NCBI GenBank assembly: GCA_023512255.1
Contig: JAILZY010000015.1
Location: forward strand, 1 to 57,539
Length of the DNA: 57,539 bases
From: a bacterium
GTDB lineage: Bacteria > SZUA-182 > DTGQ01
Reading direction: 5' to 3'
The translations under genes were made by a program, and so were the position numbers. The notes below the pieces were generated by a model. It was not told the DNA's origin. It made no database searches and saw only the letters and a program-made list of their open reading frames with translations. Shown here piece by piece: positions 2,435-56,164 of this stretch (its first letter is position 1; each line of letters begins with the position of its first letter).

Positions 2435-2481
2435 CTGCTTCCAGCAGGCTTTCTTAAGCTGCTTCTAGCAGGCTTCTTAAG
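2435..2481. repeat. tandem duplication with hairpin before the DUF2589 gene
   Basis: A 24-bp unit, CTGCTTCCAGCAGGCTTTC..., at 2435-2458 is repeated at 2459-2481 with one substitution and one missing base. The first copy also forms a short hairpin (AGCCTGCT/AGCAGGCT). It is one of many intergenic microduplications in this window. Confidence 0.8.
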
Positions 2482-2535
2482 TGTTTTGCCAGAGTATAAA
2501 AATCAATTTTTCAGGCCGAAAGGGAGGTAAATATT

Positions 2536-3129
2536 ATGGCTACACCAGGACAAGAATTAGCTTCATTGGATTTTGAAAGTCTTATTGGCGGACCGCTAGT
2601 GGCGATTGTCCATGCCCAGGCTCAGGCTGCTTTGGCTACGGCCAATTTTATCAAGCAGGTTGGCTTCAAGCCACCAACAGGTACGCAAACTGCGACCGAG
2701 CAGACTACGGGAGAGCCGGCAACTGTCACCTTTACCTACAAGAAGATGGTTCCCAAGGCGGATGGAAGCGGCGAAGAAGAAAAGACCGCAACCCTAACCG
2801 TTCCTTTCCTGGCCATGCTGCCAATTCCCTATCTGCGGGTGGAGGAGGCCAATGTGGATTTTTTGGCCAAGATCAACTCTGTCCAATTTCGGCAGGTTGA
2901 CACCAACCTGGAGGTAAAGGGTGAGCTAGAGGCTAAGGCAGGATGGCTGTGGGGAAGCGCAAGACTCAAAGTTACCACCACCTATCAGAGGCAGACCAAA
3001 GAGGGGTCTACTGTAACTCGAGACTATTCAATGGGGGTCAAGGTGAAGGCTGTTCAGGAGGAGATGCCCGGCGGGCTGGCTAAGCTCTTGAGCGTTCTTG
3101 AATCGTTGATCAAAGAGACTACAGCCTAA
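2536..3129 (+). CDS. DUF2589 family protein
   Basis: This 197-aa soluble protein opens with LDFESLIGGPLVAIVHAQAQ, the hallmark N terminus of the DUF2589 family: a short amphipathic segment followed by AQAALATANFIKQVGF. The middle is predicted beta-rich (VTFTYKKM, LTVPFLAMLPIPYLRVEEANVDF), and the family name rests on this pattern. The biochemical function of DUF2589 proteins is not known to me. There is no signal peptide. A GGGAGG ribosome binding site 8 nt upstream fixes the start. The gene is followed after 19 bp by a partner gene of matching style, and the pair ends in a strong terminator, so it is a two-gene unit beside a CRISPR array. Confidence 0.75.
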   Translation: MATPGQELASLDFESLIGGPLVAIVHAQAQAALATANFIKQVGFKPPTGTQTATEQTTGEPATVTFTYKKMVPKADGSGEEEKTATLTVPFLAMLPIPYLRVEEANVDFLAKINSVQFRQVDTNLEVKGELEAKAGWLWGSARLKVTTTYQRQTKEGSTVTRDYSMGVKVKAVQEEMPGGLAKLLSVLESLIKETTA

Positions 3130-3148
3130 GTCAAGGAGGGTCTTCCCA

Positions 3149-3895
3149 ATGGCAAGTTTAGGAGAGGTAGTCGGTGCCCTGATCAGTCAGATCAGCAAGG
3201 GGCGAAGTCAGGCGGATATGGCTACCTTGGAAGTGGCTAAGGTATATAAAGAGCACCCTCTCCTGTCGTCCTTCCCAGTGCCGAAGATGACCCTGGATGA
3301 AGTGGTGATCGACCTTAAGGTGTCGATCTCGGCTGCTCCGGTGCGAAAGGTTCTGAGCGCTGAGGCAAAAAGGGAAATCTTGGCTGAGATAGATAAGATG
3401 ACCCGTGAGGCAGTAACTAGTGAGCCCTCTCTACAGAAGCTCAGCCGCAAATTTCCTGATCTTTCGGGCATCATGGACCAGACTCATCCCAAGTTTATGG
3501 AGAGATTGTCTGAGCTTTTGCCTGAAGAAAAAGAGATTGAGCCGAAAAGTATTGCCCAAGCCGCAGCTTCGGTCATTAGGGGACATTTGACCGATACGGT
3601 CCTGGGGGCTGATCCGAAGGTAGTTAACAAACTTTCTAAAGACTTCCTACAAAGCGAATCCCCCCAGATTGAGGCTAAATTAGCCTCACAGATCCAGGCT
3701 AAAATCTCAGGGGTTCTTGAGGTTCAGCCAATTGATAAGGAGCGACTTGAGGTCTTGGTAACCGCCTCTGAGCTTCAGTCAATTCCGCCAGAGAAGATCA
3801 CCACCTTGAGACTAACCCTGCGAGAAGCGGATCAATCCTGGACTCAGATCGAGACTGAAAAAGGCGAAGTGCAAGAAAAGCTCGTTCCTCATTAG
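3149..3895 (+). CDS. DUF2589-associated hypothetical protein
   Basis: This 248-aa protein begins MASLGEVVGALISQISKGRS followed by a helix and HPLLSSFPVPKMTLDEVVID. That layout is typical of the second protein found next to DUF2589 genes: a helical N terminus, then a beta stretch built around a PVPK/R motif. The remainder is mostly helical, charged and Ala/Lys-rich, with no transmembrane segment or recognisable catalytic motif. The start is supported by AAGGAGGG 8 nt upstream. It lies 19 bp after the DUF2589 gene and is surely cotranscribed with it, so I infer that the two proteins act together. The function is unknown. Confidence 0.7.
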   Translation: MASLGEVVGALISQISKGRSQADMATLEVAKVYKEHPLLSSFPVPKMTLDEVVIDLKVSISAAPVRKVLSAEAKREILAEIDKMTREAVTSEPSLQKLSRKFPDLSGIMDQTHPKFMERLSELLPEEKEIEPKSIAQAAASVIRGHLTDTVLGADPKVVNKLSKDFLQSESPQIEAKLASQIQAKISGVLEVQPIDKERLEVLVTASELQSIPPEKITTLRLTLREADQSWTQIETEKGEVQEKLVPH

Positions 3896-3906
3896 TAGAC
3901 TCATTG

Positions 3907-3946
3907 GTAGAAAGGTTGATCCAGGAGTAGAAAGGTTAATCCAGGA
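3907..3946. repeat. 20-bp tandem duplication after a stop codon
   Basis: GTAGAAAGGTTGATCCAGGA at 3907-3926 is followed directly by a copy with one substitution at 3927-3946. It lies 11 bp past the stop of the DUF2589 partner gene. Confidence 0.9.
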
Positions 3947-3969
3947 GAAAAATCTCAGATTAATTAAAG

Positions 3970-4053
3970 GCTTCTCTTCCCCTCTTACCCTGCCCCCCAC
4001 TAAGGTGAGGGCAGGGAAGGAGGGAAGCGGAAGAGAGGGATTTTTCTTTTCTT
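3970..4053 (+). terminator. rho-independent terminator after the DUF2589 pair
   Basis: A long GC-rich hairpin pairs CCCTGCCC (3988-3995) with GGGCAGGG (4009-4016), and further out CTCTTCC with GGAAGAG. A T-rich run, TTTTTCTTTTCTT, follows from 4041. Confidence 0.8.
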
Positions 4054-4290
4054 ATGCTCTAGCTAAATAAACCTACTCCACTAAATAAACCTTATTCCAA
4101 TAGACCTTATTCCAAACTCTCTTTGTCTAACTAAAAATAAAGTCTAACTAAAAATAAACCTACTCCAGACTCTATTTGTCTAACTAAACTTAGTCTAACT
4201 AAACTTACTCCACACTCTCTGTCCCCTCACGGTAAATCTAGCATAATACCTATATTTAGCATGATACCTAGAGATAAGCGCTAACTAAAC
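4054..4290. repeat. AT-rich nest of short tandem duplications
   Basis: No gene is evident here. The stretch is built from several adjacent short duplications: CTAAATAAACC(T)TA.TCCA units, GTCTAACTAAAAATAAA twice, GTCTAACTAAACTTA twice, and TAGCAT(A/G)ATACCTA twice. The units differ from one duplication to the next, which suggests repeated independent slippage or duplication events rather than one microsatellite. Confidence 0.75.
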
Positions 4291-4489
4291 GGTCTTTTCG
4301 CTAATAAAGTGCGTAAGCTGCGGCGGTAAAGTGCGCAAGCTAGGGGTGGGCAACAAGGTCCGCACCTACAATTGATAGCATCATTGAGCCGCTGTGCGGA
4401 CCTTGTGTTACGCGCGCTCCGAGCTGGCGGTGAGTGGAGCGCTCTGTGATCTGTCTGCGTACTTTTGTTACCCACTTAGCGAAAGAGCC
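4291..4489. repeat. MITE-like palindromic element, repeat family C
   Basis: The ends are imperfect inverted repeats: GGTCTTTTCGCTAATAAAGTG on the left and CACTTAGCGAAAGAGCC on the right. Inside are further inverted pieces (CAAGGTCCGCA and TGCGGACCTTG). Two related shorter copies lie at 29694-29810 and 29822-29925. No transposase is encoded. It looks like a non-autonomous palindromic repeat. Confidence 0.7.
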
Positions 4490-4507
4490 ACTAAAGATTT
4501 CCCCCTT

Positions 4508-5083
4508 TTAGGGAAGTATAGGCCCTAAGCCTAGAATAAGAGATGCGGTTAGCAAAGAGGTAAGGGAAGGGGTTGTAGCTACAGAAGAGGGTGGATAAGC
4601 AGCAACAAAGGTATTGTTGGCTACCGGCACATTGTTAGTCAGCCAACTGGTGGCGGTAGGCGCCAGAAGGCTCCAGCCTTTGATTAAAGAAAGGTTAATC
4701 GGAGCCGGAAGCCCAGTGAGCGGGTCTTTTAAATATGCTGGAGGCCAGGGATTTATTCCATACAGAGGGTCGTAATAAACCAAACCAGGGGGAACATAAT
4801 ATAAAAGCCAAGGATAGGGTCTTCGAGGGTCCCAGGTAAGGCCTGGTTGCACAGGCAGGACTCTGGTTGATTCCAAGCTGCTGACAATAGGCGTGGGGAG
4901 GCCGGTCAGGGGATTGGTCGGTGAAAGAGGAGGAGACCACAGCGGCCATAAGGTATTGTAAGGAGGTAGGTTTATCCAGTTGGCAGACTCTGAGGCTGTG
5001 GGAAGATAGAAGCTAATCCCCAAAGTTATGATTAAGACTAAAATCAAGACCTTAAAGATATTTTTTGGAGTCATATGAGCCAT
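4508..5083 (-). CDS. small secreted proline/aromatic-rich protein
   Basis: I do not recognise this 191-aa protein. An N-terminal signal peptide is clear (KNIFKVLILVLIITLGISF, with cleavage near TASESA). The mature part is rich in Pro, Leu, Trp and Tyr and carries a repeated motif, NPLTGLPTPI and DPLTGLPAPI, flanking a YPWLLYYVPPGLVYYDPLYG stretch. The C terminus is a hydrophobic Ser/Thr/Leu tail ending GLGPILP. AGAGGT lies 7 nt before the ATG. It is downstream of the cytochrome/FN3 cluster but beyond that cluster's terminator, so it is probably transcribed separately. An extracellular structural or adhesive role is possible, but only composition supports it. Confidence 0.65.
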   Translation of the reverse strand: MAHMTPKNIFKVLILVLIITLGISFYLPTASESANWINLPPYNTLWPLWSPPLSPTNPLTGLPTPIVSSLESTRVLPVQPGLTWDPRRPYPWLLYYVPPGLVYYDPLYGINPWPPAYLKDPLTGLPAPINLSLIKGWSLLAPTATSWLTNNVPVANNTFVAAYPPSSVATTPSLTSLLTASLILGLGPILP

Positions 5084-5276
5084 AATAGCACCTCTTCTTA
5101 TCTCCCCCCCATTTACTTAACATATAGTGGCTATCCTATATAAGAATTAAGAATATAGGATAAGGATATAGGGAAAATATTATCATATTAGCTTATTCAT
5201 TTAAATTTTATCCTATTTAGAACAGATTTTCAAAAATATTTTTTTTGATTTTTTCTATGGGAAGATAGATATGAAA
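5084..5276. other. AT-rich upstream region of the small secreted protein gene
   Basis: This is non-coding. It holds a perfect 10-bp inverted repeat, TATCCTATAT (5132-5141) and ATATAGGATA (5153-5162), about 50 bp upstream of the minus-strand start at 5083. That could be an operator or a leader hairpin. No confident -35/-10 pair was found. Confidence 0.45.
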
Positions 5277-5336
5277 AATTTAAAGTTTTAGGAGGATGGC
5301 TTGGAAGGAACCCTTTTTCAAAAGGGTTCCTTCCAA
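5277..5336. repeat. hairpin repeat, family B
   Basis: TTTAAAGTTTTAGGAGGATGG is followed by perfect 17-bp arms TTGGAAGGAACCCTTTT (5301-5317) and their complement (5320-5336) around a 2-nt loop. The same head and nearly the same arms occur in reverse orientation at 46149-46206. A variant with different arms is at 46213-46276. Confidence 0.85.
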
Positions 5337-5356
5337 AATAAATAAGGATTAAAAAT

Positions 5357-5392
5357 AAAAAAAGCGGGGTTGTTAACCAGCCCCGCTTTTTT
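5357..5392 (-). terminator. rho-independent terminator of the cytochrome/FN3 cluster
   Basis: A strong stem, AAAAAGCGGGG with CCCCGCTTTTT, encloses an 11-nt loop. It has A/T tracts on both sides, so it can work in either direction. It lies 20 bp past the FN3 gene's stop on the minus strand. Confidence 0.9.
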
Positions 5393-5412
5393 GTTTTCAG
5401 GTTAAAAATTTC

Positions 5413-8400
5413 TCACTCCTCAGAAAGCTCCACAAAGCCTATAGTCTGGCCAATCAAGACCTCTTCGCCCCGCAGGATTTTGATCTTAACTAGTCTTCCA
5501 TCCCCTGGGGCCTTGAGCAGGATCTGCCCATGTCGCTCGATCTCGATCCTAGCCAGCGGCTCTCCTCGGCGAACCTCATCACCTTCGGTTTTTAGCCACT
5601 CAAGGAGGCGGCCGCGAACATCTTTTAGACTATCCATAAGGTCGTCACGCTCTCGCGGCTTACCCTCCTCCTCATCCTCCTGTACCCTGCAGAGCGGAAC
5701 AAACAGGCTCCCCCGGGCTCTACGAAGCTCTCTCTGCTTAGGAGGCTCGGAGGAAACCCTGCCCCTGATTTGCACAAGCCCTGGCTCTCTTCCCGCTCGG
5801 TAGGTGCAGGAGGCCTGGCCATTTCGGTTAGTTTGGAGCGTTGAGGCTGAAAGCTCACCATTTCGGGATAGCCTTCCCTGCTCATCCTGAAGCCTTAACT
5901 GAATAATGGCTTGCGGATTTGGATTTTCATTGATATCGGTAACCGTAAGGGCAATCTCAGCTACCTCGTCGCTGTCGGCCTCAAGACAGGCATCAGGCAA
6001 AGCAGTCATGATGAGTTTGGCCGGAGCATCACTCATCAGGATGATACTGACCGAGTCCTCAAGATATGGGGCGCCATCGGGATTTTCAAGACGGCTGGCT
6101 ACGGCGCTGATAGTTACCGTACCGATATTTTTCCCAGCCTGATAAAAGATATATCCGGCGCCTGCCGAATCGGTAATCAGGCTCTGGGGTTGTAGGCTCC
6201 CTTCTTCAGCCACTTCTCCATCTGCCAGAGAGAATGAAACCCGATACTTTTTGCTCACCGGCTTTCCCTGGCTATCGAGCAGCCTAACACTTATTCTTGA
6301 GCGGCTTCGGCCATCAGCCGTGATTTTGGGCGGGTCTGCGCTCAGGATCATCCTAGCCGCATCACCTGGCCCTGCTGCTGCCGCCGCCAGAGCCCTATTT
6401 CGCTGCCTTGACCGCAACCAAATGTCCAGACTGCTTTCAATAAAGCTGGTGATATAGCCTACTCCAGCTTGGCCGCTGTCTAGGTCTTTAGCAATAATCA
6501 AGGCTGTCTTGGCGGCAAAGCCAGCCGTATAGGTGGCCTCACACCGCCCCAAGCTATCGGTAACTCCCTCAAAGTCAATGGCCAGTTTGCCGTCAATTTC
6601 CTGGCCAAAATTCCCCCCACCGATGACATCGGTGTATTCGTCGGTTGTGGCCAAAGTCAGAGCTACATGATGGCCGCTTACAGGGTTCCCATTGACATCC
6701 TTAATCTCCATGGTAAGCTTGGCCTGTGATTTATTATCAGCCCGAAGCTCTTGCTTTTGGGCAGATACGGTAATCACTGAGCGGGTGTCGATGGAGAGGG
6801 TCTCCTCACTGCTCTTAGTGGTTAAATTGCCAGCCTGATCGGATAAGTAGCCAAAGACTGCGATCTTGTCCGCATCATCCCCAATTTGAATAACATAGCT
6901 GCCCTGATACTCTCCCTGAATGAAGCGAGACTCTTGCATCGGGATCTTTTTCCCCTCCGCACCGAGGCTGAAGAAGGCGATAGCACCAGGCTCTCCAGAA
7001 AGAATGACCTCCAGCTGATCTCCAGCCACCAGTTTTCCCGAAATCCCAGCTATCCGAGAGCCATTATGCGACAGCTTGCTGATCACAGGGGGCTCTTGAT
7101 CATCCACCTGTACATTGATCCGCAAGGGTTTTGCTCCCTTGCCCAGCCTCTGCCTCCCTGCCCGATCAGAGACCCTAGCCACCAGGGCTGCCTCTTCAGC
7201 CCGATCCGAAGCCCTGACCTTGTATTCACCCCGATATACCCCTGGCCGGACCTCTTCGAGCGCGGTCCAAGGCACTACTCCCTCGATAGAATAATACGCT
7301 TCACAGCCCCGATCCGCCTCAACCTTTATGGTTACTATCCGGCCCGTTTTGACCGGAATACCCAAGGTATCGTCGGTAACTGAAAAGATAGCTGGCGAGT
7401 CGCTATATTGAGCTAAATCAATTCGCACCGGCTCAGAGAGTTTTGATCGATTTCCAGCCTCATCCACGGTCCTGACTGCATAATAGTAAACCGCACCGCT
7501 CTCGGCCTTATCATCTACATAGGAAGAAATCCCCCGCTTGACAAGAACATATGAGGGCGGCGGAAAGTTTGGATCAACAGCCGAGGGTGAGCGAATTACC
7601 TCTACGGCGGAAAAACTACCCTCAGCCGGCAGAGTCCAGGAGAGTTCAGGCTGGCCATAGGTATTAACCTTACCGTTGAGAGAAAGTACCGGAGGAGGGG
7701 GATCATTTTTGATCGAGATCGTGCCTGCGGCCTTTTTCATGCTTCGATTGCCCTGCGGGTCAGCCAGACATCCCCAAACCGGCGCCTGGCTAAGATTAAT
7801 TCCCGAAGGTACGGTAAACTCCTGATAATACACGCCTGGCCCTGTTTCTCTCATCGGCTGATTCTCAGTCAAGCCCTCGATGGTGAAAGAGGCCTGACAG
7901 CCAGGCTCACCACGCATGATTAGGGTAATGATATCACCCGCTTTTTTCGGCTTTCCTTGCGTATCTTCACTAATCGAAGCGATATAAAGAGCTTGAGTAT
8001 AGCAGGAAACCTCAAGCGGAAACAGACTCTCTCGGCCCTCTTTATTAACACTGACCACCGAATAAAGATATCTCTTATTTTCCTCAACCGCTTCATCCAC
8101 ATAGGAGGTGCTGGTTAGGGGTTTTTCAGTAAGCTTTTGAAATTGCTTCTCTTCCAAAGATTCCCGACGATAGACATTATAGCCTACCACTTGAGGATCA
8201 GAGCTTGCCGGCCACTCCAGCCTTACCTTGCCAAGTTCATAGGTGGCTTTAAGATCAGAAGGCTCAACCGGATTAGCCATAGGAGTTGCCTCCCTCTCCT
8301 CAGACCGAGGGCTTTCCATGCCATCCTCACCCACTGAGGTAATTACATAATAGTACCTTAGGCCATTTTTAACCTCATGATCTTCAAAATAGGTACACTC

Positions 8401-9042: not shown

Positions 9043-9097
9043 GGCCAATCTTGCTCCTCAATCATGTTTTGTTTTTGTGCTGGCAGCTCTCTTTGCG

Positions 9098-10705: not shown

Positions 10706-10745
10706 CTCCTCACCTAAATTTTTTATCGGTCAAAAGCAGACCTTT

Positions 10746-14318: not shown

Positions 14319-14736
14319 AGGTAATGAGCTTCTCTTACTCTATCCTTCAAGCGGCAGAAAATAACCTGCAGGCTATTGCCTATGCGGCCAGCCTCAAGCT
14401 GCCATCAAAAAGTAAGGTATTATTTTTAAGGTTAAATCTGACACAGCGATAGGTTATTATGCAAGTTTAGTTCCTGTGCCCTGGGGAGTAGCTTTTTTAT
14501 TATTTTAACCTACTGTGAAAAAAACTACAATATGTTTTACATGCTGGCAGGATTTTAATCTCCTAGAGAATGCCAAAAAGAGAATCGCTCTTATATATCA
14601 GACACCATAAGCCCTCGAAGGAGCTTAGCTCTTATTAGGGTTATGTCTCTCAATGGTAGCTAATAAATAAATAAGAGCGAAGAGAATATCGAAGGGAGCG
14701 ATTTTTGATTTTTAACCCTCTCGCTCTTGTCCACAC
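14319..14736. other. intergenic region between the two giant cytochrome genes
   Basis: This is non-coding. It separates the 26-haem gene from the 21-haem gene, which read in the same direction. It is AT-rich, with short inverted pieces (AAGAGCGAAGAG with CTCTCGCTCTT, 14673-14727) that could terminate or attenuate upstream transcription. No convincing promoter was identified. The 21-haem gene may have its own promoter here. Confidence 0.4.
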
Positions 14737-14788
14737 CTGTCACCTTACTCACTCTCAGCTGTCACCTTACTCACTCTGGCGACTCAGG
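14737..14788. repeat. tandem duplications at the end of the 26-haem gene
   Basis: CTGTCACCTTACTCACTCT occurs at 14737-14755 and again at 14759-14777. TCTCACTCTGGCG pieces repeat into the last codons. On the minus strand this duplicates the stop-codon neighbourhood (GCCAGAGTGA). Confidence 0.8.
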
Positions 14789-14792
14789 TTTC

Positions 14793-17700
14793 TCACTCTG
14801 GCGGCTCCGGTGCCGTCCGATCCATAAGTGGACGAGGATAGTAGCGGTAATTTCCACCCACCCGCTGCAGCTTGCCATGACATTCCCAGCAATAAAGGTC
14901 TAGGTAATTATCAAGGCTGTCATCATAGACCCCATATTCTCTGCTGCCAATAGAGCCATATTCTTCCCCTTCCTCATCTATCCGATGCTCGATCGCCAGG
15001 TCATCTCGGGTCATAGAGATGTAGTGGGACCCATGCGGATTATGGCAGGCCGTGCAGGAGGGCCGGGAGTCCAATATTCCGTCCCGATCCGAATCCCAGA
15101 AGGCGTAAGGCCTCTCCTTGACTATGCTTGTGCCGGCATGGCATCGGCTCGAATAGCAGGTCTGCCTTCTGCGGTTATTGCTACTGCTGCTGCCTTGTGG
15201 CTGTGGTCTTATAATCGCGTTCGGATCGATAACAGCATCCGGCAGCGAGAGATGATTCCAGTGAAGATTGTATCTGCGCATGGGAAAGAGCTTGCTAAAA
15301 TCAATAGTTATGCCCTGTCCCATCTTTCTCAGAGGATAGATCCCGTGCTCATCTGCGTTACTGAAGCTGGTCAGGGGATAGGTATTAACATTAAGATTTA
15401 CATAAGGATTATGATTGTCAGTATAATCCCAATACCCTGGCGGGAGCCCAATAATGGAAGCCTCCTTATGACAGCTAAAACAGAGAGTAAAATCGGTGCT
15501 GCGATATTCTTCCGACCTGCGGGGTAGCTCAAGAGGCAGCCTCAGCCGGAATTTGTTAGCCTGCCAATTTTTGAAATTCTTCTTTTTCTCTCGCTGGCTA
15601 TTAACGATGTGTCTGGCCTGCGGCGCATGGCAAGCAGTGCAGTCAAGCCCAGCGCCTCCCCGGCCTGATTGCTCATAATTTCCTCCCTTAGGCAACCCAT
15701 GCCCACTGATATAAAATCCACTGCTTCGATCCGTCGGATCACCTAGGATATTAGGGGCCTGAACCCATAGTGTCTCCGGCAGACTGGGATTTTGGATCCG
15801 GGATGGCTGATCATCATGGCAGCTAATGCACCACTCCTCCTTGCCCGACTTAAGTTGCCAGTCTGTTTGCTCCTTATCGTATACGCCCTTTTTCCAGGAA
15901 GCCTTGGCTCCATTGGTGGCTGAATTCCCATTCACTCCGTCATAACGCCCCCACCGACTGTGGCAGATATCGCAAACGCTGGTTTCGGCCAGGGGTTTCC
16001 CATCGTTAAAGATTAATTTGCCGGCCTTAAAGTAAAGCTCCGGAGAGTGGCAGATATCGCAATTTCGGCCTGAGACGGCAGCGCCTCCCTGGGTTTGTTG
16101 ATGAAGTAAGATCGAATCCTCCCCGCCAGCCAACAGGCTTCTGAAGTGGAATTCATGAGTGCCCGGCCCAGTGCGGGGGGATTTTGGCACAGCCATTCGA
16201 TTGTGGAGATGGCACTTGGTGCAGGGGGTGCTATGTTCGGCTGCCGTATGCTCAACCAGCCTGAGTTTATCCTGCGAGGGGGTTTTCACAATTTCTACTC
16301 CGAAGAGTCGCACCGGTGTATTCTTCGGCAGATCTGACTCAGAATAGCCATGGCAGGCGGCACAGATTTCCCGGCCTGTTCCGGTTCCGTTGCGGCTGTT
16401 TCTGCTTGCTCGAAGTCTGTCTGAGGAGCTCGTCCCCAAGGGGGAGCGTAAAAAGGCCTCATTGCCGCCAGGCCGATTGTGCGGATCGTGGCAGAGGCTG
16501 CACGAGAGCTTGTCACCGGTATTGATGCCGTTAGTAGTTTCAGTTAGGCCGACTGTCTTTATGTAATGTCCGCCGGTCTCCATCCCTTCGGGAGGAAGAT
16601 CACCCAAGCCACTTTCGCCTATGCTCCCTGGTGGAATAGTCTCATAAAAACCAACCTTTGAGTTCTTGCCAGGACCATCGCTGAAGGCAATATCCTGGGG
16701 CGGGGAGAGAAAGGCATTGATCGGCGGATCATCATCAACCGTATAATGATCATCATGGCAGTCATAGCATAGCAGACTTACCCCTAAGGTATAGTTTGGC
16801 CTCTTAGTTTGGCTAAATATTTTACGCTCTTGGGCTAGACTGCGCGACCAGAGCCTGATCTTTTCCGAAGATCCGTGGGGAAGATGACAAGCCGCACAGA
16901 CACCACCAGTCGAAGAGCCTAGGTTAAGATTAGAAAAATCATGCCGCGAGCCGACAATGCTCTCATAAGGAGTATGACAGCCGCGGCAGAGGTCGCTTCC
17001 CTCTTGTGATGAAAAATTATCCACCACCAAAAGCTTACCATGAGACCTTCCCTCTGCTCTGCCAGCGGCCGCACTGGAAGCTAGCTTGATCTGGCCGCTT
17101 GGGCTGGTTTTGGCCGCATGGATACTATGGCAGCTCAGGCACAGAAGCTGGCCGCTTGGGCTCTCGTCAGAGGTGATTCCATAAGGCAGGCCGCTCTTTC
17201 CTCCGTAGGCAAAGCGAGGAAATCTCTCATCAGTGATCCCTGGTCTGGGGAAGACATTGACCGGATGGCTCGATTGCCCTCCGGCCGGAAGCTCGCTGTG
17301 GCAGCGGGCGCAAAAGCCGCTGCCCCGGTAGGGAGAATCCTTGCCCCTCAGATAGGGAGGATTGGCGCTCTTGTGGACATCGTGGCAACTTCCGCAATAA
17401 ATCTTCCCCTGCCCTGCTCCGTAATCATCCACTACCTTAAGCTGATCCCCATCAGAAATCGGCAGAGTCGGATGAATTTTCTCCGAAGGGACAGATGAGA
17501 TTCGATGGCTGAAGTATTTGTCAGGCTGTAGCTTAGCTCCCTTTGCTCCGCTGCCCTTCATGTAGAGATCGCGGCTGTGGCAGCCAAAGCAAAGGTCCTC
17601 AAAGTCTTCTGTGTCTGTATCATCGGCCTGATCAGACCAGGCCAAATTGACCGGATCAGGCCTAAGGAGAGCCTCAGTGGCCGGGACCTTGCGGCTTCCT

Positions 17701-21084: not shown

Positions 21085-21148
21085 TAGCGTAACGTAAGCA
21101 CGACTATGTGGTACTCCAAACCATACAGGAAAGGAGGTGGTTCAGAAA

Positions 21149-21676
21149 ATGAAAAAGTGTTTACCCCTTCTACTTCTCGTGGTTCTGCTTACCCCAGCAA
21201 TTGCCTTAGCCGGTGAAGGGCATGAGGAATGTTCCCTTTGCCATGGAGCTCACACGGCAGTAGGGCCAGGCCTTTTGACCGAAAAACCGAATACTACGAC
21301 CATTAATCCTGCCACTGGAAAGCCGCTGGAGAGAATGGAGCAAATCTGCATGGCCTGTCATGCAGCCGAGCCCGATGGTCTAGGCTATCGGCCCATCAAA
21401 ATGGAGAGCACTCATCCATGCGGCATCAAACCAAAGAAGGTCATTTTACCGGAAAGTGCAAAGGGTTTCAAGGGGCAGGAAGATCAGCTTACCTGCATGG
21501 GATGTCATGATCCTCACCCGTCAAATACCAACTATATGTATCTGAGAGGCCCTCAGGTTTCGGCGGGCAATACCCAAGCTTTCTGCATCTGGTGTCATCC
21601 GGCACAGGCAGGGTCAGCATCTCATCAGGCGGCTCCAGCACCTAAGCCGGCTCCAGCACCGAAGCCTAAGGAGTAG
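21149..21676 (+). CDS. small tetrahaem c-type cytochrome
   Basis: This 175-aa exported protein has a clean signal peptide (KKCLPLLLLVVLLTPAIALA, cleaved before GEGHEE). Four CXXCH motifs are present (CSLCHGAH, CMACHAAE, CMGCHDPH, CIWCHPAQ), partly of the doubled-CXXCH kind. The tail is an Ala/Pro/Lys stretch ending APKPKE, which may anchor it or contact a partner. The ATG at 21149 is preferred because AAGGAGGT lies 10 nt upstream; an in-frame GTG at 21137 overlaps that site. It is divergent from the giant-cytochrome cluster and has its own promoter and terminator. A periplasmic shuttle feeding the large cytochromes is a reasonable inference. Confidence 0.9.
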   Translation: MKKCLPLLLLVVLLTPAIALAGEGHEECSLCHGAHTAVGPGLLTEKPNTTTINPATGKPLERMEQICMACHAAEPDGLGYRPIKMESTHPCGIKPKKVILPESAKGFKGQEDQLTCMGCHDPHPSNTNYMYLRGPQVSAGNTQAFCIWCHPAQAGSASHQAAPAPKPAPAPKPKE

Positions 21677-21730: not shown

Positions 21731-21763
21731 GGAGCTTAGCTCTTTGCAGCTAAGCTCCTTTTA
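21731..21763 (+). terminator. rho-independent terminator of the tetrahaem gene
   Basis: The perfect 11-bp stem GGAGCTTAGCT/AGCTAAGCTCC (21731-21741, 21748-21758) encloses a 6-nt loop. A TTTT run follows. Confidence 0.85.
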
Positions 21764-21815
21764 TATTTCAAGGCACTTTATCCTTGAATATATTTCAAGG
21801 CACTTTATCCTTGAA
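21763..21815. repeat. 26-bp tandem duplication
   Basis: The unit beginning ATATTTCAAGGCACTTTATC occurs at 21763-21788 and, exactly, at 21790-21815. It lies directly after the terminator. Confidence 0.9.
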
Positions 21816-23878: not shown

Positions 23879-23958
23879 ATCGGATAGGGTGAGGAGGCTT
23901 AAATTGATCAAGGAAATTGAGCAGGTTAAAGGTCAACTGGATCAGATAGGGTAAGGAG
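23879..23958. repeat. duplicated ATCGGATAGGGTGAGGAG segment
   Basis: ATCGGATAGGGTGAGGAG (23879-23896) recurs as ATCAGATAGGGTAAGGAG (23941-23958), a 62-bp period with two differences. The second copy supplies the ribosome binding site of the dCMP deaminase. Confidence 0.75.
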
Positions 23959-28095: not shown

Positions 28096-28674
28096 ATGAC
28101 CAAAATACTTCTGATACTTGTCAGTACGATCCTGGTAAACAACTTTGTCCTGGCAAAATTTTTAGGTATCTGCCCTTTCCTGGGTGTATCTCGCAAAACA
28201 GAAACCGCGGTAGGGATGGGGCTTGCGGTAACGTTTGTGGTTACCCTGTCAACAGCTTTGACCTGGCTGATGCAGATGTTGATCTTAAAGCCGTTCCATA
28301 TTGAATACATGCAGACGATTGTCTTTATCTTGGTCATTGCCGGGCTGGTGCAATTTGTCGAAATGGTGCTTCAGAAAACCAGTCCCGCCCTATATCAGGC
28401 CCTGGGGATCTATCTTCCCCTAATCACCACTAACTGTATGGTTTTGGGAGTGGCGGTTCTGGCTGTACAATTAGAATACAGCTTTATCGAGTCACTGATC
28501 TACAGTTTTGGCGCCTCAGTCGGGTTTGCCTTGGCTTTGGTGCTCTTTGCCGGCATCCGCGAACGTCTTTCTCTGGCTGATGTTCCCGAAGCCTTACAGG
28601 GAACGGCTATTGGTTTGGTAACCACCGGCCTTTTGGCTCTGGCTTTTATGGGCTTTAATGGACTGGTTAAATAG
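28096..28674 (+). CDS. rnfA: Rnf complex subunit RnfA
   Basis: This 192-aa membrane protein is a paralogue of RnfE with six predicted helices. Diagnostic blocks are [36 protein letters not shown] and [22 protein letters not shown]. The Cys in GICPF and TTNCMV are the conserved pair matched by RnfE. GAGG lies 7 nt before the ATG, 17 bp after rnfE. The stop-codon region is duplicated: GACTGGTTAAATAG occurs at 28661-28674 and again at 28685-28698. Confidence 0.96.
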
Positions 28675-28698
28675 AGCCTTAACTGACTGGTTAAATAG
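28661..28698. repeat. 14-bp duplication copying the rnfA stop
   Basis: GACTGGTTAAATAG at 28661-28674 (the rnfA end) recurs exactly at 28685-28698. Confidence 0.9.
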
Positions 28699-28721: not shown

Positions 28722-28750
28722 TTTACAAAAATTTGATTATTGCTTATAAT
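28722..28750 (+). promoter_or_regulatory. sigma70-type promoter of rnfB
   Basis: TTTACA (28722-28727) and TATAAT (28745-28750) are exactly 17 nt apart. The predicted start is near 28757, 20 nt before the rnfB ATG. It lies between rnfA and rnfB, so rnfB can be transcribed separately. Confidence 0.65.
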
Positions 28751-28777
28751 CTAAAGTAATCTAAAGGATAAGGAATT

Positions 28778-29596: not shown

Positions 29597-29693
29597 TCGC
29601 CCCTTGAGCAATAACTCCCCTTCGGTCTGGTAGTTTGATGGGCTATCTCAAAGCTGCCGCGGCAGGCACAAGCCAGTCCCATTTAGCTTGAGT

Positions 29694-29925
29694 GCTCCTG
29701 TCGCTAACAAAGTGCACAAAGGTTAGTGCGGACAATAAGGTCTTGCACCCTGCGATTGATTGGGTAATTGATCCCCTGCCCGCTTGTGTTACGCACTTAG
29801 CTAAAAGAGCAACCTAATAAGTGCTCCTGGGGCTAACAAAGTGCGCAAAGGTTAGTGCGGACAGGAAGGTCTTGTACCCTGCGATTGATTGGGTAATTTG
29901 ATCTTCTCCCGCACTTGGCGATAGT
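29694..29925. repeat. two tandem copies of MITE-like repeat family C
   Basis: Copy one (29694-29810) runs from GCTCCTGTCGCTAACAAAGT to TTACGCACTTAGCTAAAAGA and has imperfect inverted ends. Copy two (29822-29925) repeats its first ~90 bp almost exactly but lacks the right end. Both relate to the element at 4291-4489. The surrounding 29597-30014 shows no gene. Confidence 0.75.
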
Positions 29926-31605: not shown

Positions 31606-32883
31606 ATGGAAGTTATTGTTTTTGGATTAAATCATAAGACAGCTCCAGTAGAAATCCGAGAGAAACTCTCTTTTTCTAAGTCCCAGATCAGCTATGCTCA
31701 TAAGGAATGCATCAATAGCCAGATCGTTCAGGAACTTATGATCCTCTCAACCTGCAACCGTGTTGAGCTATTCGCTGTGGTGAACTCAACCGAAGAAAGT
31801 GTCAAGGCACTTAAGGAATTTTTAGCTAAATTCCACCATATTTCGCCGCAGATTCTTGATGATGTGAGTTATTTTTATACGCAAAAAGAAGCTATTCGGC
31901 ATTTATTCCGGGTGGCTTGCAGCCTGGATTCTATGGTCATCGGAGAGCCACAGATTTTAGGCCAGCTCAAGGAGGCGTATAACCAGGCTCTTGAGGACCG
32001 CTCAATCGGCAGTTGGCTGACGGAACTGGTGGAAAGATCGTTTCACGTGGCCAAAAAAATTCGGACCGAGACAGGGATTTGCAAAAACGCCGTCTCTATC
32101 AGCTTTGCTGCGGTAGAGCTGGCTAAAAAGATCTTCGACAAGATCGAGGGGAAATCCGTATTGCTCGTCGGCGCTGGAGAGATGAGTGAATTGGCTGCTC
32201 GGCATCTTTTGTCAAATGGAGTAACTAATATCTACGTAGCTAACCGTACTCATGAGCGGGCGGAGGAGCTAGCCAGGCAGTTCAATGGCCAGGTGCTTCC
32301 TTTTGCTTCGGTGAAAGAAAATCTTGAGCTGATGGACATTATTATCACCTCTACCAGTGCTCCTCATTTTCTCTTCAATAAGGAAGAGGTTCAAAAAACC
32401 CTTCACCGGAGAAAAAACAGGCCTCTTTTCTTTATTGATATTGCGGTTCCCCGAAATGTGGATCCGGCGGTCAGCAAATGTAGCGATGTTTACGTTTATG
32501 ATATTGACGACCTGCAGATGGTGGTCAATTCAAATCTTCTGGAGAGGCAAAAAGAGGCCAAGTATGCGGAAACGATTGTCGAGCGATTTGTGGAGCAGTT
32601 CTGGGAGAAGCTAAATTCCAGGAATGTCGTGCCGACAATCGTAGAATTGACGCAAAAATTTGAGGCTATACGTCAACAGGAATTGAAAAAGGCTTTCTCT
32701 AAACTGCCCAATCTTTCTGATGCTGAGCGGGAGGTTATTAGCTGTCTGGCTTCGGCCATAACCAAAAAGATGCTTCACGATCCAATTTGCCTGTTAAAAA
32801 AAAAGTCAAATTGCAGCAATACGGCATATTACATTCAAGCAGCTAAGGAACTCTTTAATCTGGATGGCTTTAAGAGGCCATAA
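31606..32883 (+). CDS. hemA: glutamyl-tRNA reductase
   Basis: This 425-aa enzyme reduces glutamyl-tRNA to glutamate-1-semialdehyde, the first committed step of C5-pathway haem synthesis. Visible features are the N-terminal GLNHKTAPVEIREKLSF, the catalytic cysteine in ILSTCNRVELFAV, the NADPH-binding motif LVGAGEMSELAARHLL and the helical dimerisation C terminus. Length is normal. hemL, the next enzyme, is not in the window. The last codons and stop are copied exactly just downstream (32871-32891 and 32892-32912). The order hemA-hemC-cobA/hemD-hemB is a classic haem operon order. Confidence 0.97.
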   Translation: MEVIVFGLNHKTAPVEIREKLSFSKSQISYAHKECINSQIVQELMILSTCNRVELFAVVNSTEESVKALKEFLAKFHHISPQILDDVSYFYTQKEAIRHLFRVACSLDSMVIGEPQILGQLKEAYNQALEDRSIGSWLTELVERSFHVAKKIRTETGICKNAVSISFAAVELAKKIFDKIEGKSVLLVGAGEMSELAARHLLSNGVTNIYVANRTHERAEELARQFNGQVLPFASVKENLELMDIIITSTSAPHFLFNKEEVQKTLHRRKNRPLFFIDIAVPRNVDPAVSKCSDVYVYDIDDLQMVVNSNLLERQKEAKYAETIVERFVEQFWEKLNSRNVVPTIVELTQKFEAIRQQELKKAFSKLPNLSDAEREVISCLASAITKKMLHDPICLLKKKSNCSNTAYYIQAAKELFNLDGFKRP

Positions 32884-32912
32884 AGCATCTATAAGAGGCC
32901 ATAAAGCATCTA
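32871..32912. repeat. 21-bp exact tandem duplication over the hemA stop
   Basis: The unit starting TAAGAGGCCATAAAGCATCT occurs at 32871-32891 and at 32892-32912 with no differences. The first copy contains the hemA stop codon. Confidence 0.95.
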
Positions 32913-34401: not shown

Positions 34402-34473
34402 CAGCCGCCGGTAAGATAGAAACTTACAGAATATAAACTTACAGACAGATAAGCAAAATGAGGCCAGTTTAAG

Positions 34474-37064: not shown

Positions 37065-37094
37065 AACAAGGCAAGCTACAACAAGGCAAGCTAC
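37065..37094. repeat. 15-bp exact tandem duplication
   Basis: AACAAGGCAAGCTAC at 37065-37079 is repeated exactly at 37080-37094, just after hemB. Confidence 0.9.
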
Positions 37095-39757: not shown

Positions 39758-39947
39758 AAAGTGGGGAATTGTCAAGGCGTTTTTTTTTGTTTATCCGCGG
39801 AAGGCTTTTCGCTCAGCCATGAAATCATCGCTAAACCTATCCCTGCTAAACCTATCCCTCGAACCTAAATTCCTTTGGCCGCCTTACTGGTATTTTCTTT
39901 TCCATTTTTTTATCTCAAATATCCTGACAGGCGGATTCTGACCGAAC
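39758..39947. repeat. intergenic region with 15-bp tandem duplication
   Basis: GCTAAACCTATCCCT occurs at 39830-39844 and exactly again at 39845-39859. No gene is apparent between the two converging genes here, and a long T run follows the upstream stop. Confidence 0.8.
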
Positions 39948-40499
39948 TCAATGGCTCTTTCCGTCTGGCTCGGCCGAAGCAGCAGCAGGAGAGCCCACTA
40001 CCCAGCGGGCCGGGCATCCGGCCAGCTCCCGACAAGAGCGACAGCCAAGGAGGGCATGTTCAGTCAAAAGGCCGCCGACAACCACAACCAGCCCAAGCCC
40101 TAACCAAAGGCTCAACCGATCCTGCCAGAAAATAATCCGCCACACAGCCCCGGCCAGGGGAAAAAGGCCGATAGGCAGTAGGAAAACATTGTGCCAAACC
40201 CCGTCGGTAAAGACATGGTGGGTATCCTTGCGGTAGAGCAGGCCAGCCACAAGTCCAAAACCAGTGCTGCATCGCCGCCCGTGATAGAAGCATCGAGTGC
40301 AGCGAAGGCCAGGCATAATCATGATAGCCGCAGCCAAGCAGTAGAGGCCATACAAAATGGCCAGGCTGAGGTGAATCCCGGCGAGGGTCCAAAGCCCAAG
40401 CCCCAAAAGAGCCAGGTTGAACAGATTGCGCAGTAGAGGAACATAGATCGGATAATTATTCTTTATCTCTTTCATAACCTCAAAATTTCTCTCTCTCAT
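39948..40499 (-). CDS. Cys-motif membrane protein of unknown function
   Basis: I do not recognise this 183-aa protein. It has four or five hydrophobic segments and two cysteine clusters: CTRCFYHGRRCSTG after the second helix, and CRSCRELAGCPAR near the C terminus. These could bind a metal or an Fe-S centre, or form disulfides. The C terminus is soluble and Ala/Ser-rich. Two starts are possible: 40499, or the Met nine codons in at 40475. Both are preceded by the same TTTTGAGGTT because the leader has been duplicated. It converges with the NosR-like chimera. A shared redox role is a guess based only on the Cys motifs. Confidence 0.65.
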   Translation of the reverse strand: MRERNFEVMKEIKNNYPIYVPLLRNLFNLALLGLGLWTLAGIHLSLAILYGLYCLAAAIMIMPGLRCTRCFYHGRRCSTGFGLVAGLLYRKDTHHVFTDGVWHNVFLLPIGLFPLAGAVWRIIFWQDRLSLWLGLGLVVVVGGLLTEHALLGCRSCRELAGCPARWVVGSPAAASAEPDGKSH

Positions 40500-40536
40500 A
40501 ACCTCAAAAAGCCTCTATAAAATTCAATTAAAAAGA

Positions 40537-46299: not shown

Positions 46300-46328
46300 T
46301 TGACAGCTCAAGAGTCTGATGTTAAGCT
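46300..46328 (+). promoter_or_regulatory. weak candidate promoter of metG
   Basis: TTGACA at 46300-46305 is a perfect -35, but the sequence 17 nt on is TAAGCT, a poor -10. The site is 42 bp before the metG ATG. Confidence 0.35.
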
Positions 46329-46370
46329 TAGGTCTGTTTTTGTTTAATTTTAATTTCAAAGGAGTAGCTT

Positions 46371-47984: not shown

Positions 47985-48018
47985 GGCACTTTTGCAGGGG
48001 CGCTTTTGCCCTTCTGGT

Positions 48019-48570: not shown

Positions 48571-48585
48571 ATGCTAAGTTCCTTC

Positions 48586-52077: not shown

Positions 52078-52133
52078 CCTCACACCTGCCTTGAGTTTTT
52101 TGAGACACTCTGCCTTCTCGTTTCTTTTTTCTC

Positions 52134-54629
52134 TCAGTATTGCCGCCCAGCAAAAAGGGAGGAGAAAAAGGGGCTGCTGGTAAGAGCAAAGCTGCTGGCA
52201 AGAGCGCCGCTTACGGCCCCATACCAAACAGCGGCGCTGGCAGGCGGACAGCTTAAGCTGCCGCCCAGCGGATTGAAATAGCTTTGGCTATATAAGCTGG
52301 AGCTATATAAGCTTGAGAAAAAGTCTCCGCCACCTGAGCCGGCGGAAAAGGATGCGGCTGAAGAAGGCAGGGCAGTTAGGGCAGAAAATGTGGCCGAAGA
52401 TAAAAAGGTGGCAGGATAAAACGATGGGCCTGCAAAGCCCAGGGCTGAAGACAGGGCCAAGGTTGCCGGATTCCAGATCGGTGAGCCAGACCCAGCCAGC
52501 CCGCTAAATTGGTATGTACTGCTGCTCCATCTATTGTCAGGCAAACTGAGCGAGCCGCTTGCGGGCATAATGGTCGTACCTGCGGGCACAATGGTCGCAA
52601 AAGATGTGGCCGAGGGAGAATAGTTAGAAGGTAAGTAATTAAGCGTAGAGAATTGGCTGGGCATAGAAAATTGGCTGGAAGAATATCCTGTCCAGTTAGA
52701 AGAATACCCTGTCCAGAGAGAATTTGCCGACCATCCTCCTAATCCTGATCCTGCTAATCCCAATCCTGATATCGGTGGCGCTTTCTGGGTTTTAAACGAT
52801 AAACTGACCGGAGCGGCAAGAGCATTCTGAGCCTGATCTGTGGCTGATGTCCGAACCTCTACCTGATAGGTCGTATCATAGGCCAGCGCCTGGCGAGGGG
52901 AGATGCACCAGAGGGTCTCATCCTCCATCATAGTGAGCATATAGGCTACCTCTCCACCACCTGAGCGCACAAAGGAGATGGCTCGCTCAACCGACTGCGG
53001 AACCATCGGCTCGGTAAAGGCTAGATAAATTTTGGTCGAAGTCGAAACATTGTCAGTGCTGTTACCATCAAGGTAAAGGACCGCTTGCGGGGGGATGGTA
53101 TCAGGCTTATCCCCCTCAGGAGGTTGTGCCTGATCAGTGATAAAGGTAAATTGAAAAGCCGCAGCCAGCATCAGACCTTCTGCGTCCCGGGCCACCTGGC
53201 TAACTGATACAGTATAGAGCTGGTGAGCGGCCCAATAACCATCGGGCTGAAACTGAAGCCTCTGATTATTATTCAGCCACCGGATGCAGCCTTGAGTCGG
53301 GGGGGCGATGGAAAAAGCGGCACTGGTTAGCTCAGGATTCATCGGCTTGCTGAAATTTATGACAATAGCCTTATTCAGGGGGAAAAATAGTGAATCAGGA
53401 TCGCGGCTATCAGGAACAGAGCTCAAGACATAAGGATAGGGATTAGTCTTTGACGGAGCAAAGGAAATAGCTAGCCCCTCGGCCAGATCAGGATAATTTC
53501 CCTCTCGGCCATTGTAGGAGTAGAGCCGCGACAGCACCTGATTGCCCTGAGCATATTTGAGACCTACCGTAGCTGATTGGCCATAGCTATACCCATCCTG
53601 CGGGGATCTGAAGATAAGGTCCTGGTATTGAAAGGTAATAGTGTTGCTCCCCTCCCATAGAATCACCTCAAAGGAAATAGCTCCTTTGGCCACAGCCTGA
53701 TAAGAGCAGATCTCATGCCATTCAATAATGAATCGCCTAGGCGAGCTTTCCTCATCGAGCCAGGCGTAAACCTTTCCCCCATGCTCAGGATTCAGATCAT
53801 CCCAGAAAGGAGCAATAACCTTAAGAGGCTGAGTTATACTCTGTAAGTTATTGTTTTCAGGCTCAGTAGCATAATCCCCAATCAGAGTCAGATAGCCATT
53901 TGAGGAAACCAGCAAGCTAGTAATTTCTTGGCCGAAAAAGAAGAAGGGAAAACCAATGGCGACCTCTTCAAAGCTGTCATCCGAAGCTAGGGAATAGAGT
54001 GGCTCGCCCTTCTCAGAGAGCTCGATCCACTGATAAAGATCAATCATTGGGGTATATGAAAATCCTTCGATCTTCAGGGTATATCGATTGTCAGCCCCAG
54101 GAGTCGAAGAGAAAACCTGACAGTAATAAGTGCCAGGCTGGGCCTGAACGATAATTTCCTCATTATCCGTCTGGGAATAGGATGAGGCGATCCACTCGCT
54201 GCTGCCTGGCGACCAGGTGGAGACGCCTTCGCCCTGACGATACAGGATAAGATCCAGGTTGCCATTTTGACTATTTGAAAATAAAATACTTATTTTTAAG
54301 GCCATCTCCTCAGACAGAGTAATTTTATACCAGTCTGGATCAAGACAGCGAAGGTTTTCCCAGCAGCCGAATTGAATGGCTGTAGCCTGAGAAGGGATAT
54401 CATTTTCCATATCTTTTCCACTTACCTCAAGCTGATCATCTTCTTTGTCTACGGCTGGCTGGCTGCCGCTACTACCGTCACTACCATAAGCAGCCTGAGG
54501 CTGAGCAGACAGAAGCAGGAGCGACAAGGTTATAATGGCAAACAGAGCAGCAAAGCCAAAGAGGGCCCATGGGCCCGAAAAGCTTCTTTTTATCCCAGCC
54601 ATATATTTCCTTCTCATCTTCGCCCTCAT
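52134..54629 (-). CDS. exported PPC/NIDO-like/Big_5 protein with Ser- and aromatic-rich tail
   Basis: This 831-aa protein has its signal at ~20-48 (WALFGFAALFAIITLSLLLL, then AYGSDG). A pre-peptidase C-terminal (PPC) domain follows (~75-195, DPDWYKITLSEEMALKISI, GTYYCQVFSSTPGADNRYTL), then a NIDO-like beta domain (VSSNGYLTLIGDY, VIAPFWDDLNPEHGGKVYAW, then ISFEVILWEGSNTITFQY). Two Big_5/SbsA-type Ig domains come next (INFSKPMNPELTSAAFSI, LAFTEPMVPQSVERAISF). The last ~200 residues are low complexity, dominated by Ser, Ala, Gly, Tyr, Phe and Trp (for example NSLWTGYSSNWTGYSSSQFS). It starts in an ATGA overlap with the NHL gene upstream. No protease or enzyme domain is seen. It is probably a surface or matrix protein. 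Confidence 0.8.
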   Translation of the reverse strand: MRAKMRRKYMAGIKRSFSGPWALFGFAALFAIITLSLLLLSAQPQAAYGSDGSSGSQPAVDKEDDQLEVSGKDMENDIPSQATAIQFGCWENLRCLDPDWYKITLSEEMALKISILFSNSQNGNLDLILYRQGEGVSTWSPGSSEWIASSYSQTDNEEIIVQAQPGTYYCQVFSSTPGADNRYTLKIEGFSYTPMIDLYQWIELSEKGEPLYSLASDDSFEEVAIGFPFFFFGQEITSLLVSSNGYLTLIGDYATEPENNNLQSITQPLKVIAPFWDDLNPEHGGKVYAWLDEESSPRRFIIEWHEICSYQAVAKGAISFEVILWEGSNTITFQYQDLIFRSPQDGYSYGQSATVGLKYAQGNQVLSRLYSYNGREGNYPDLAEGLAISFAPSKTNPYPYVLSSVPDSRDPDSLFFPLNKAIVINFSKPMNPELTSAAFSIAPPTQGCIRWLNNNQRLQFQPDGYWAAHQLYTVSVSQVARDAEGLMLAAAFQFTFITDQAQPPEGDKPDTIPPQAVLYLDGNSTDNVSTSTKIYLAFTEPMVPQSVERAISFVRSGGGEVAYMLTMMEDETLWCISPRQALAYDTTYQVEVRTSATDQAQNALAAPVSLSFKTQKAPPISGLGLAGSGLGGWSANSLWTGYSSNWTGYSSSQFSMPSQFSTLNYLPSNYSPSATSFATIVPAGTTIMPASGSLSLPDNRWSSSTYQFSGLAGSGSPIWNPATLALSSALGFAGPSFYPATFLSSATFSALTALPSSAASFSAGSGGGDFFSSLYSSSLYSQSYFNPLGGSLSCPPASAAVWYGAVSGALASSFALTSSPFFSSLFAGRQY

Positions 54630-55660
54630 CTTCGCCTTTCCCCCAAATCTTTCAATATCTTAATGCAGTGAAGGCCCTGGAGAGAGACATAGATTGCCCC
54701 CTGCTGATCCATTGTCATATCAAACGGTTCTGATGAATTTAACCCATCGGGGACATCCGTATCTTTGATAATGCCTATCGGATGCCCGCCAGAGTCAAAG
54801 ACCTGAATCACTGACAGCAGTCGGTCAAGAACATAGATCTTCCCTTCGCTGTTCACCGAAACAGCCACAGGCCGGGCAAAATTTCCCACCCGGCTACCCA
54901 ATTCTCCAAAGAAGAATAGAAATTCTCTTTGGCGGCTATAGACCTGAACCCAGCCATTGATGGAATCAATGATATAGATCTGCCCCTGGCTATCAAAAGA
55001 GGTTTTACCCAAGACAGCCACAGCTCTTGTTTTTGTACGATCCAGGGGAAAGAGGCCGAGGAAATCCCCTTTGAGATTAAAGAGCTTAATATTGGCATTG
55101 GCGCTGTCTGAGAGGTAGAGAGTATCATGGCTGCGATCGAGGCCCATCTTAGTGCAGCGCATCGGCTGCCGATCATTAGGCCCCTGGATGTGGGCAAAGC
55201 TGAATTCGGACTGAAATTCGCCCTTGTTTGAAAAAGTTAGCACTTTCTTAAGCTCCGGATCCAAAACCAAAACCCTTCCCCGGCTAGTAACTTCAATGCT
55301 CATGGGAAGCAGAAAGGCACCCGCTTCTGTCCCCTTCTTCCCGAACCGGTATAGAAATTTCCCCTCAGGACTAAACACCTGAACCTCGGTCCGATCAAGA
55401 AAGATGGCAAATAGCTTTCCCTCATCATCGAGAGCAATCCCTTTTGGCAGCCCATCTTTAAGATTCGGCCTCCCCTGCTCATCCACTCCATAGATGGTGG
55501 CCAGGCAGCTCACCTTCCGGCCAACAGCCACCTCTTCGCTATCAGCCTTGGCTGGTTTTTTTTGAGCCAAAGCCAAAGATGCAGTAAAGTTTACAAAACC
55601 AAGGACCGTAGCCGTCAAGATAATAATAAGCACACTGGGGTAAAACCCGCTATCTTTCAT
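54626..55660 (-). CDS. exported NHL-repeat beta-propeller protein
   Basis: This 344-aa protein has a signal peptide (YPSVLIIILTATVLGFVNFT, then ASLALAQ). About six NHL-type blades follow, with the repeating pattern of a hydrophobic VxV/VFSPEGKFLYRFGKKG strand and IALDDEGKLFAIF or VSVNSEGKIYVLDR turns. NHL propellers bind proteins or ligands and are often found beside multihaem cytochrome genes in metal-reducing bacteria (established for Geobacter-like genomes, recalled). The N-terminal GRKVSCLATIYG resembles SRKVELVRRIYG in the other NHL protein here, so the two are paralogues. The stop overlaps the next gene's start by 4 bp. Confidence 0.9.
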   Translation of the reverse strand: MKDSGFYPSVLIIILTATVLGFVNFTASLALAQKKPAKADSEEVAVGRKVSCLATIYGVDEQGRPNLKDGLPKGIALDDEGKLFAIFLDRTEVQVFSPEGKFLYRFGKKGTEAGAFLLPMSIEVTSRGRVLVLDPELKKVLTFSNKGEFQSEFSFAHIQGPNDRQPMRCTKMGLDRSHDTLYLSDSANANIKLFNLKGDFLGLFPLDRTKTRAVAVLGKTSFDSQGQIYIIDSINGWVQVYSRQREFLFFFGELGSRVGNFARPVAVSVNSEGKIYVLDRLLSVIQVFDSGGHPIGIIKDTDVPDGLNSSEPFDMTMDQQGAIYVSLQGLHCIKILKDLGERRR

Positions 55661-56164
55661 AAGCCTTCCACCCGCCGAATTTCAGGGCACACAAGAACAC
55701 CTCATCAAGGCGTAATTCAAAAACCAGACAAGGCGCAATTCAAAAACCAGACCGCAAGGGTTTGAGGTACAGACTCAACAAATATAAGCAAATTAAAATA
55801 TGTGCAACTTACATACCATAAATGGCTGCTCATAACCCTTGATCATAAAAATCATTAATCTTAAATTTTATAAATATTTTTTTATTTTTCTTCTCAGTGA
55901 TTTATTAATCAAGGTATGCAAAAAAATGCAAGATAGGCAAATTTTTACCCACAATGTAGCGCTCTTTCGCTTTTTGATTATCCGGGCCCTATGTTTGCCC
56001 CTATGTTTACATTGATGAGGAAAGAAAAAAACCCACTTCTCGAAGAGCCATCTAAAAAGGCCCGAAATACCCACCCAAGCTAAAAATACCTAAAATACCC
56101 GCCTAAGGCCACCCGATATGATACCTTGAGGCTTCAGTGTAGTAGGCCGCCCCTCTTTTTCTCG
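55661..56164. other. intergenic region with 23-bp tandem duplication
   Basis: This 504-bp gap lies between the two NHL genes. The unit beginning CAAGGCGTAATTCAAAAACC occurs at 55706-55728 and again, with one substitution, at 55729-55751. Smaller repeats follow (CTATGTTTGCCC/CTATGTTTAC, and AAATACCC(A/G)CC). The centre (55800-55920) is AT-rich and may hold the promoter for 55660, but no clear box pair was found. No gene is seen. Confidence 0.7.

Follow-up and report, generated by a model that had tools for sequence, protein, structure and literature searches.

Same-strand cytosine marks at the boundaries of short tandem duplications point to DNA topoisomerase I in an uncultured bacterial lineage

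Introduction

Short tandem duplications are spread through the intergenic DNA of the bacterial genome described here, and their boundaries carry the cleavage mark of DNA topoisomerase I (TopA, type IA). Because the boundaries carry this mark, the enzyme probably makes the copies, and we regard the duplications as likely scars of its involvement. Topoisomerase-linked tandem duplication is already known from laboratory mutants. In E. coli, the topA R168C mutation gives rise to repeat-independent tandem duplications of 2-19 bp; its authors saw no match to known cleavage motifs at the hotspots, did not decide whether the enzyme acts directly, and regarded it as unknown how non-repeated DNA gives rise to tandem repeats (Bachar et al., NAR 2020, PMC6954433). 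In vivo, the sites cut by E. coli topoisomerase I lie in AT-rich DNA, with a C four positions before the break and T|A at the break itself (PMC9352719). The preference for C is set by a cytosine pocket formed by R169, R173 and Y177, at which topoisomerase III differs (PMC7587558).

Materials and methods

The window, which is the whole stretch of 57,539 nucleotides that was analysed, is a complete contig of a 3.83 Mb genome assembled in 172 contigs, with 96.6% completeness and a contamination estimate of 2.2%. Duplications were counted in a sample of 1.33 Mb out of the 3.83 Mb. The relatives used for comparison were one genome of the same genus (G001), whose RnfB is 78% identical to the one encoded here, together with two members of the same family, one from the order and four from the class. 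Further controls were genomes from other phyla and a 150-kb sample of E. coli K-12, of which 18 kb is intergenic. The same simple gene-calling rule, which takes the longest ORF, was applied to all genomes, and the contrast between them was unchanged under a stricter rule. Duplications were detected with Tandem Repeats Finder and by exact search, and the counted class consists of exact adjacent units of 10-44 bp. The presence of C at position -4 was scored at unambiguous boundaries, with four positions for each duplication (two boundaries, two strands).

Results

Duplications in the window

Besides a CRISPR array, the window contains ordinary genes, among them the rnfCDGEAB operon and hemA. A first-pass annotation of this DNA had listed tandem duplications in its gaps, and most of them were confirmed in place by Tandem Repeats Finder and exact search; a strand is given below for those to which one was assigned. 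Exactly as listed were the 21-bp exact duplication at 32871..32912 (+ strand), which spans the hemA stop, and the exact 15-bp duplications at 37065..37094 and 39830..39859 (both + strand), each with C at -4 on the + strand at both boundaries. The duplications at 3907..3946 (20 bp, 19/20 matching) and 55706..55751 (23 bp, 22/23) are tandem, and the one at 2435..2481 is near-tandem (about 24 bp, 91% with an indel). Other entries were present with a different unit length. The exact duplication at 21762..21815, with C at -4 of its left boundary, has a unit of 27 bp and not 26 (listed as 21763-21815); that at 14734..14777 (listed as 14737-14777) has 22 bp (21/22) and not 19, and is overlapped by a second duplication at 14770-14811; that at 34416..34445 (listed as 34420-34445) has 15 bp (14/15) and not 11; and that at 40462..40509 (listed as 40473-40510) has 24 bp with two mismatches (22/24) and not 13, and duplicates the ATG of ORF 39948-40499, on the minus strand. 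Two of the listed repeats exist but are spaced rather than tandem, namely 28661..28698 (+ strand), where 15-bp copies with a 9-bp spacer duplicate the rnfA stop codon, and 23879-23958, a decayed repeat with more than 40 bp separating the copies.

The search also recovered duplications that were absent from the earlier list. These include a 12-bp duplication at 3888..3911 (11/12) and a nested cluster at 4084-4207, which begins with a 15-bp duplication at 4084..4113 (14/15) and continues with exact duplications at 4125..4158 (17 bp) and 4178..4207 (15 bp; C at -4 of the right boundary). An exact 10-bp duplication at 28747..28766, upstream of rnfB, has C at -4 of its left boundary. Others lie in frame within coding sequence: an 18-bp duplication at 21630..21665 (17/18), within ORF 21137-21676, and an exact 12-bp duplication at 54613..54636 (+ strand), with C at -4 on the + strand at both boundaries. 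The intergenic DNA of the window holds 6 exact duplications of 12-40 bp, as against about 0 in dinucleotide shuffles.

The CRISPR array occupies positions 80-1780, at the start of the contig, and consists of about 24 copies of the 37-bp repeat GTAGAAATCCATGACCTGATGATTAAGGGATTGCGAC. A lone copy of this repeat lies at 2293-2329, beyond ORF 1938-2258, as though an insertion had split the array. No cas genes were identified near the array, which is adjoined by a gene for a DUF2589 protein (2536-3129).

The duplications as real mutations

Among duplications in coding sequence, exact or near-exact, 84 of 106 have a unit length divisible by three, whereas the lengths of intergenic units are flat over the three frame classes (97/79/85). 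Errors of assembly would ignore reading frames, and we therefore take the duplications to be real mutations; assembly error is ruled out by the frame preference in genes together with the breakpoint mark described below. The site of the hemA duplication has one copy in the same-genus genome and two here, so that the duplication at 32871..32912 is derived. Similarly, dispersed repeats contain 19 duplications, and 18 of these have single-copy paralogues in the genome that are up to 98% identical. Mismatched duplications are as common as exact ones, which indicates that the process is long-running.

No unit sequence was found twice among 155 intergenic duplications, and this bears out the earlier view that the units are unrelated and reflect a mutational habit rather than one repeat family. 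A dispersed family of the REP or MITE kind was rejected as the source in the absence of a shared unit sequence; dispersed families are present, but as a separate feature. Nor do dispersed repeats inflate the C signal, which was unchanged after masking (0.385 in unique and 0.400 in repetitive intergenic DNA).

Of the intergenic DNA, 17% has five or more other copies. One dispersed repeat, about 110 bp long and intergenic, is present in high copy number, in the window at 29690-29912 and 4250-4500 and at many sampled loci, and is without a match in the sampled part of the same-genus genome. A second, CTCTTATATATCAGACACCATAAACCC...GAAGGGGCTTAGCTCTTATTAGGG, occurs in tens of copies, for example at about 14570-14680 of the window and at L079:2780-2900 and L149:2000-2080 among the sampled loci. 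In place of unrelated duplications, gaps of the same-genus genome (L114, L033) hold runs of the heptamer CTGACCA, which show up as an over-representation of 7- and 14-bp periods; repeat pairs in that genome with gaps of 30-40 bp resemble CRISPR spacing.

Density in the genome and in its relatives

The 210 kb of intergenic DNA sampled from this genome hold 156 exact duplications, or 7.41 per 10 kb, and the density in the window alone is 12.8 per 10 kb. Of the 57 sampled loci that are at least 17 kb long, 51 contain one or more duplications. The same-genus genome has 14 in 72 kb (1.94 per 10 kb; p=1.6e-8 against the genome studied here), a difference of about fourfold in standing density, which is not a measurement of mutation rate. 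The rest of the class has 1.27 and the other phyla 0.42 per 10 kb of intergenic DNA, and no exact duplication of 10-44 bp was found in the 150 kb of E. coli K-12. In coding sequence the density is 0.45 per 10 kb (50 in 1.12 Mb), compared with 0.19 in the same genus, 0.13 in other class members and 0.19 in other phyla. The expectation that the habit is genome-wide and its rate unusual thus survived comparison with unrelated bacteria (7.41 against 0.42 and 0). Inverted repeats are about as dense here as in the same-genus genome.

Co-directional, divergent and convergent gaps do not differ in duplication density, and promoter, terminator or strand context was rejected as a driver on this ground. 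It had also been suggested that copies of a stop or start codon let gene ends drift safely. Such copying does occur where duplications overlap the ends of rnfA and hemA, yet it finds no support as a cause, since density is independent of the kind of gap and no benefit is required as an explanation.

A probable topoisomerase I mark at the boundaries

C was found at -4 of the boundaries at a frequency of 0.387, compared with 0.191 expected (binomial p=1.5e-18), and at the remaining offsets from -12 to +12 at 0.08-0.20. Both boundaries of a duplication tend to be marked on the same strand rather than on opposite strands, in intergenic DNA (permutation p=0.001) as well as in coding DNA (p=0.005); in the pooled test, none of 20,000 permutations reached the observed value (p<5e-5). 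A same-strand pair of Cs is found in only about 40% of the duplications with unambiguous boundaries. Older, mismatched duplications are also marked by C at -4, at a lower rate, and a similar tendency is seen in the same-genus genome, in five duplications. The C-bearing strand is somewhat more often the template, in intergenic (42 vs 26) and in coding DNA (23 vs 13), significantly in neither set. Microhomology of 0, 1, 2 and 3 bases was counted 74, 24, 12 and 6 times, which is at or below chance.

When events were oriented by the C, the two boundaries differed. The first is followed by DNA with a GC content of 0.23 and has T|A at 19 of 117 events. The second also has C upstream, whereas its downstream side is like background, with a GC content of 0.36 and T|A 5 times. 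The contrast in GC is significant (p=7e-7), with the AT-rich unit itself contributing to it.

The mark also varied with unit length: units of 10-15 bp and of 21-30 bp had it strongly and those of 16-20 bp weakly, in a post hoc grouping of small numbers. This length dependence resembles helical phasing. Exact intergenic duplications with 8-9 bp units are over-represented, yet lack C at -4, and might be scars of transposon target duplications. With the mark missing at 8-9 bp and weak at 16-20 bp, either a second source or a length rule is indicated.

Topoisomerase I and the repair gene set

A single type IA enzyme was detected in the genome, a TopA that keeps R168, R169, D172, R173 and Y177. No catalytic lesion is visible in the alignment, and a substitution of R168 is absent; the residue matching R35 is K, as it is in most of the aligned relatives. 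RNase HI, RNase HII, MutS, the 5' exonuclease of Pol I and exonuclease VII are present. Ku was found neither in the genome (96.6% complete) nor in its class. Full-length MutS2 is absent here and equally absent from the same-genus genome and other class members, so its loss does not track the rate. Missing repair genes were accordingly rejected as the cause, the searched genes being present and the absence of MutS2 not following the rate.

Discussion

The breakpoint signature points to direct action of topoisomerase I. In the mechanism that we propose, TopA would cut a single strand at CNNN|U, U being the future unit, in DNA that is AT-rich and underwound, and its tyrosine would hold the 5' end of U. 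A polymerase would then lengthen the free 3' end across U (10-27 bases), displacing the TopA-bound strand; we give this extension step roughly even chances. On reaching CNNN again, the growing 3' end would fit the same cytosine pocket, and TopA would reseal the held 5' end there. The product would be X-U-U-Y in one strand, and the next replication would fix the duplication. Selection would purge most copies within genes, leaving survivors that are intergenic or in frame. The cut and the same-strand mark rest on statistics, and we infer the extension and the resealing. The asymmetry of the boundaries, with AT-rich DNA and T|A at the first only, fits cutting, extension and resealing, and fits two full cuts less well.

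Two cuts by TopA on the same strand, made in two sister strands or by two enzymes on one unwound region, could also produce a duplication together with a reciprocal deletion if the ends were rejoined out of register, and no polymerase would be needed. This would place C at -4 on the same strand at both boundaries, as observed. However, the second boundary lacks the downstream half-site, with GC and T|A at background, and two copies of the region would have to be in contact; we consider this route rather unlikely. It is less probable still that some other nicking enzyme with a preference for C at -4 acts through paired nicks, fill-in and ligation. The motif by itself names no enzyme, but the type IA rule matches the distance, the base, the AT-rich context and the T|A; nicks on opposite strands would mark opposite strands, which is not favoured, and Ku, which end joining would call for, was not found. 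Replication slippage at short direct repeats is the usual explanation for short tandem repeats and is very improbable here, because the microhomology counts equal chance and slippage would leave no fixed C at -4.

The number of duplications, as distinct from their origin, could reflect a normal rate if this lineage clears intergenic insertions less efficiently. The intergenic DNA is indeed somewhat larger and repeat-rich, and the same-genus genome shows a similar C at -4 tendency. Against this, duplications within genes are also at about twice the same-genus level and inverted repeats are no commoner than in that genome; weaker removal would account for the number and not for the breakpoint mark, and we judge it unlikely. 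An artefact of assembly or binning, for which the 172 contigs and the contamination estimate might be cited, is hardly credible, since it would respect neither reading frames nor topoisomerase sites, and since duplications occur across the great majority of loci, with many mismatched older copies that speak for a continuing process. The first-pass annotation had attributed the duplications to an unusual replication or repair bias. The rate is unusual in comparison with relatives, but the boundaries indicate topoisomerase I rather than slippage or generic repair, and microhomology is unused.

The closest known system is E. coli topA R168C. As in that mutant, the duplications are head-to-tail and arise de novo from a single copy, independently of existing repeats; their sizes overlap (2-19 bp there, 10-27 bp with the motif here), and they are raised relative to relatives, here as a standing density and not as a measured mutation rate. 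Unlike the mutant, this is a natural, uncultured lineage with an unaltered R168 and a long-running process, and its duplication boundaries clearly show the same-strand C at -4 that was sought in the E. coli hotspots and not found there. The C at -4 and the AT-rich surroundings are those of E. coli topoisomerase I in Topo-Seq (Sutormin et al. 2022, PMC9352719; reviewed in PMC7587558), and T|A at the cut is shared as well, here at the first boundary only (19/117 vs 5); the cytosine-pocket residues of bacterial topoisomerase I are conserved in the TopA of this genome. Topo-Seq maps transient cleavage, whereas the boundaries studied here are written into the genome. In yeast and in human cancer, type II topoisomerases generate new duplications whose units, mostly of 2-4 bp, are set by a four-base stagger, and which require non-homologous end joining (reviewed in PMC11477040). 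There, too, a topoisomerase intermediate and fill-in give a tandem duplication; the present duplications differ in having longer units (10-27 bp) and the mark on one strand, and no Ku was found in their genome.

In the open-licence literature that we searched, we found neither a natural genome shaped by topoisomerase duplication nor a breakpoint signature that indicates the enzyme. The present genome offers a natural lineage that topoisomerase-linked duplication probably shapes, and its breakpoint signature makes the question of direct action testable on data that are already public. We tentatively propose, at somewhat less than even odds, that topoisomerase I acts here as a natural, template-extending strand-transfer mutator and that new intergenic sequence stems mainly from this activity, which is readable from the same-strand C at -4 and yields motif-bearing units that follow the helix turn. 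If this strand-transfer reading is true, events of this kind could be counted in any bacterial genome by their same-strand C at -4. If the process is general, it would explain in part where new repeats, displaced gene ends and short in-frame insertions in bacteria come from.
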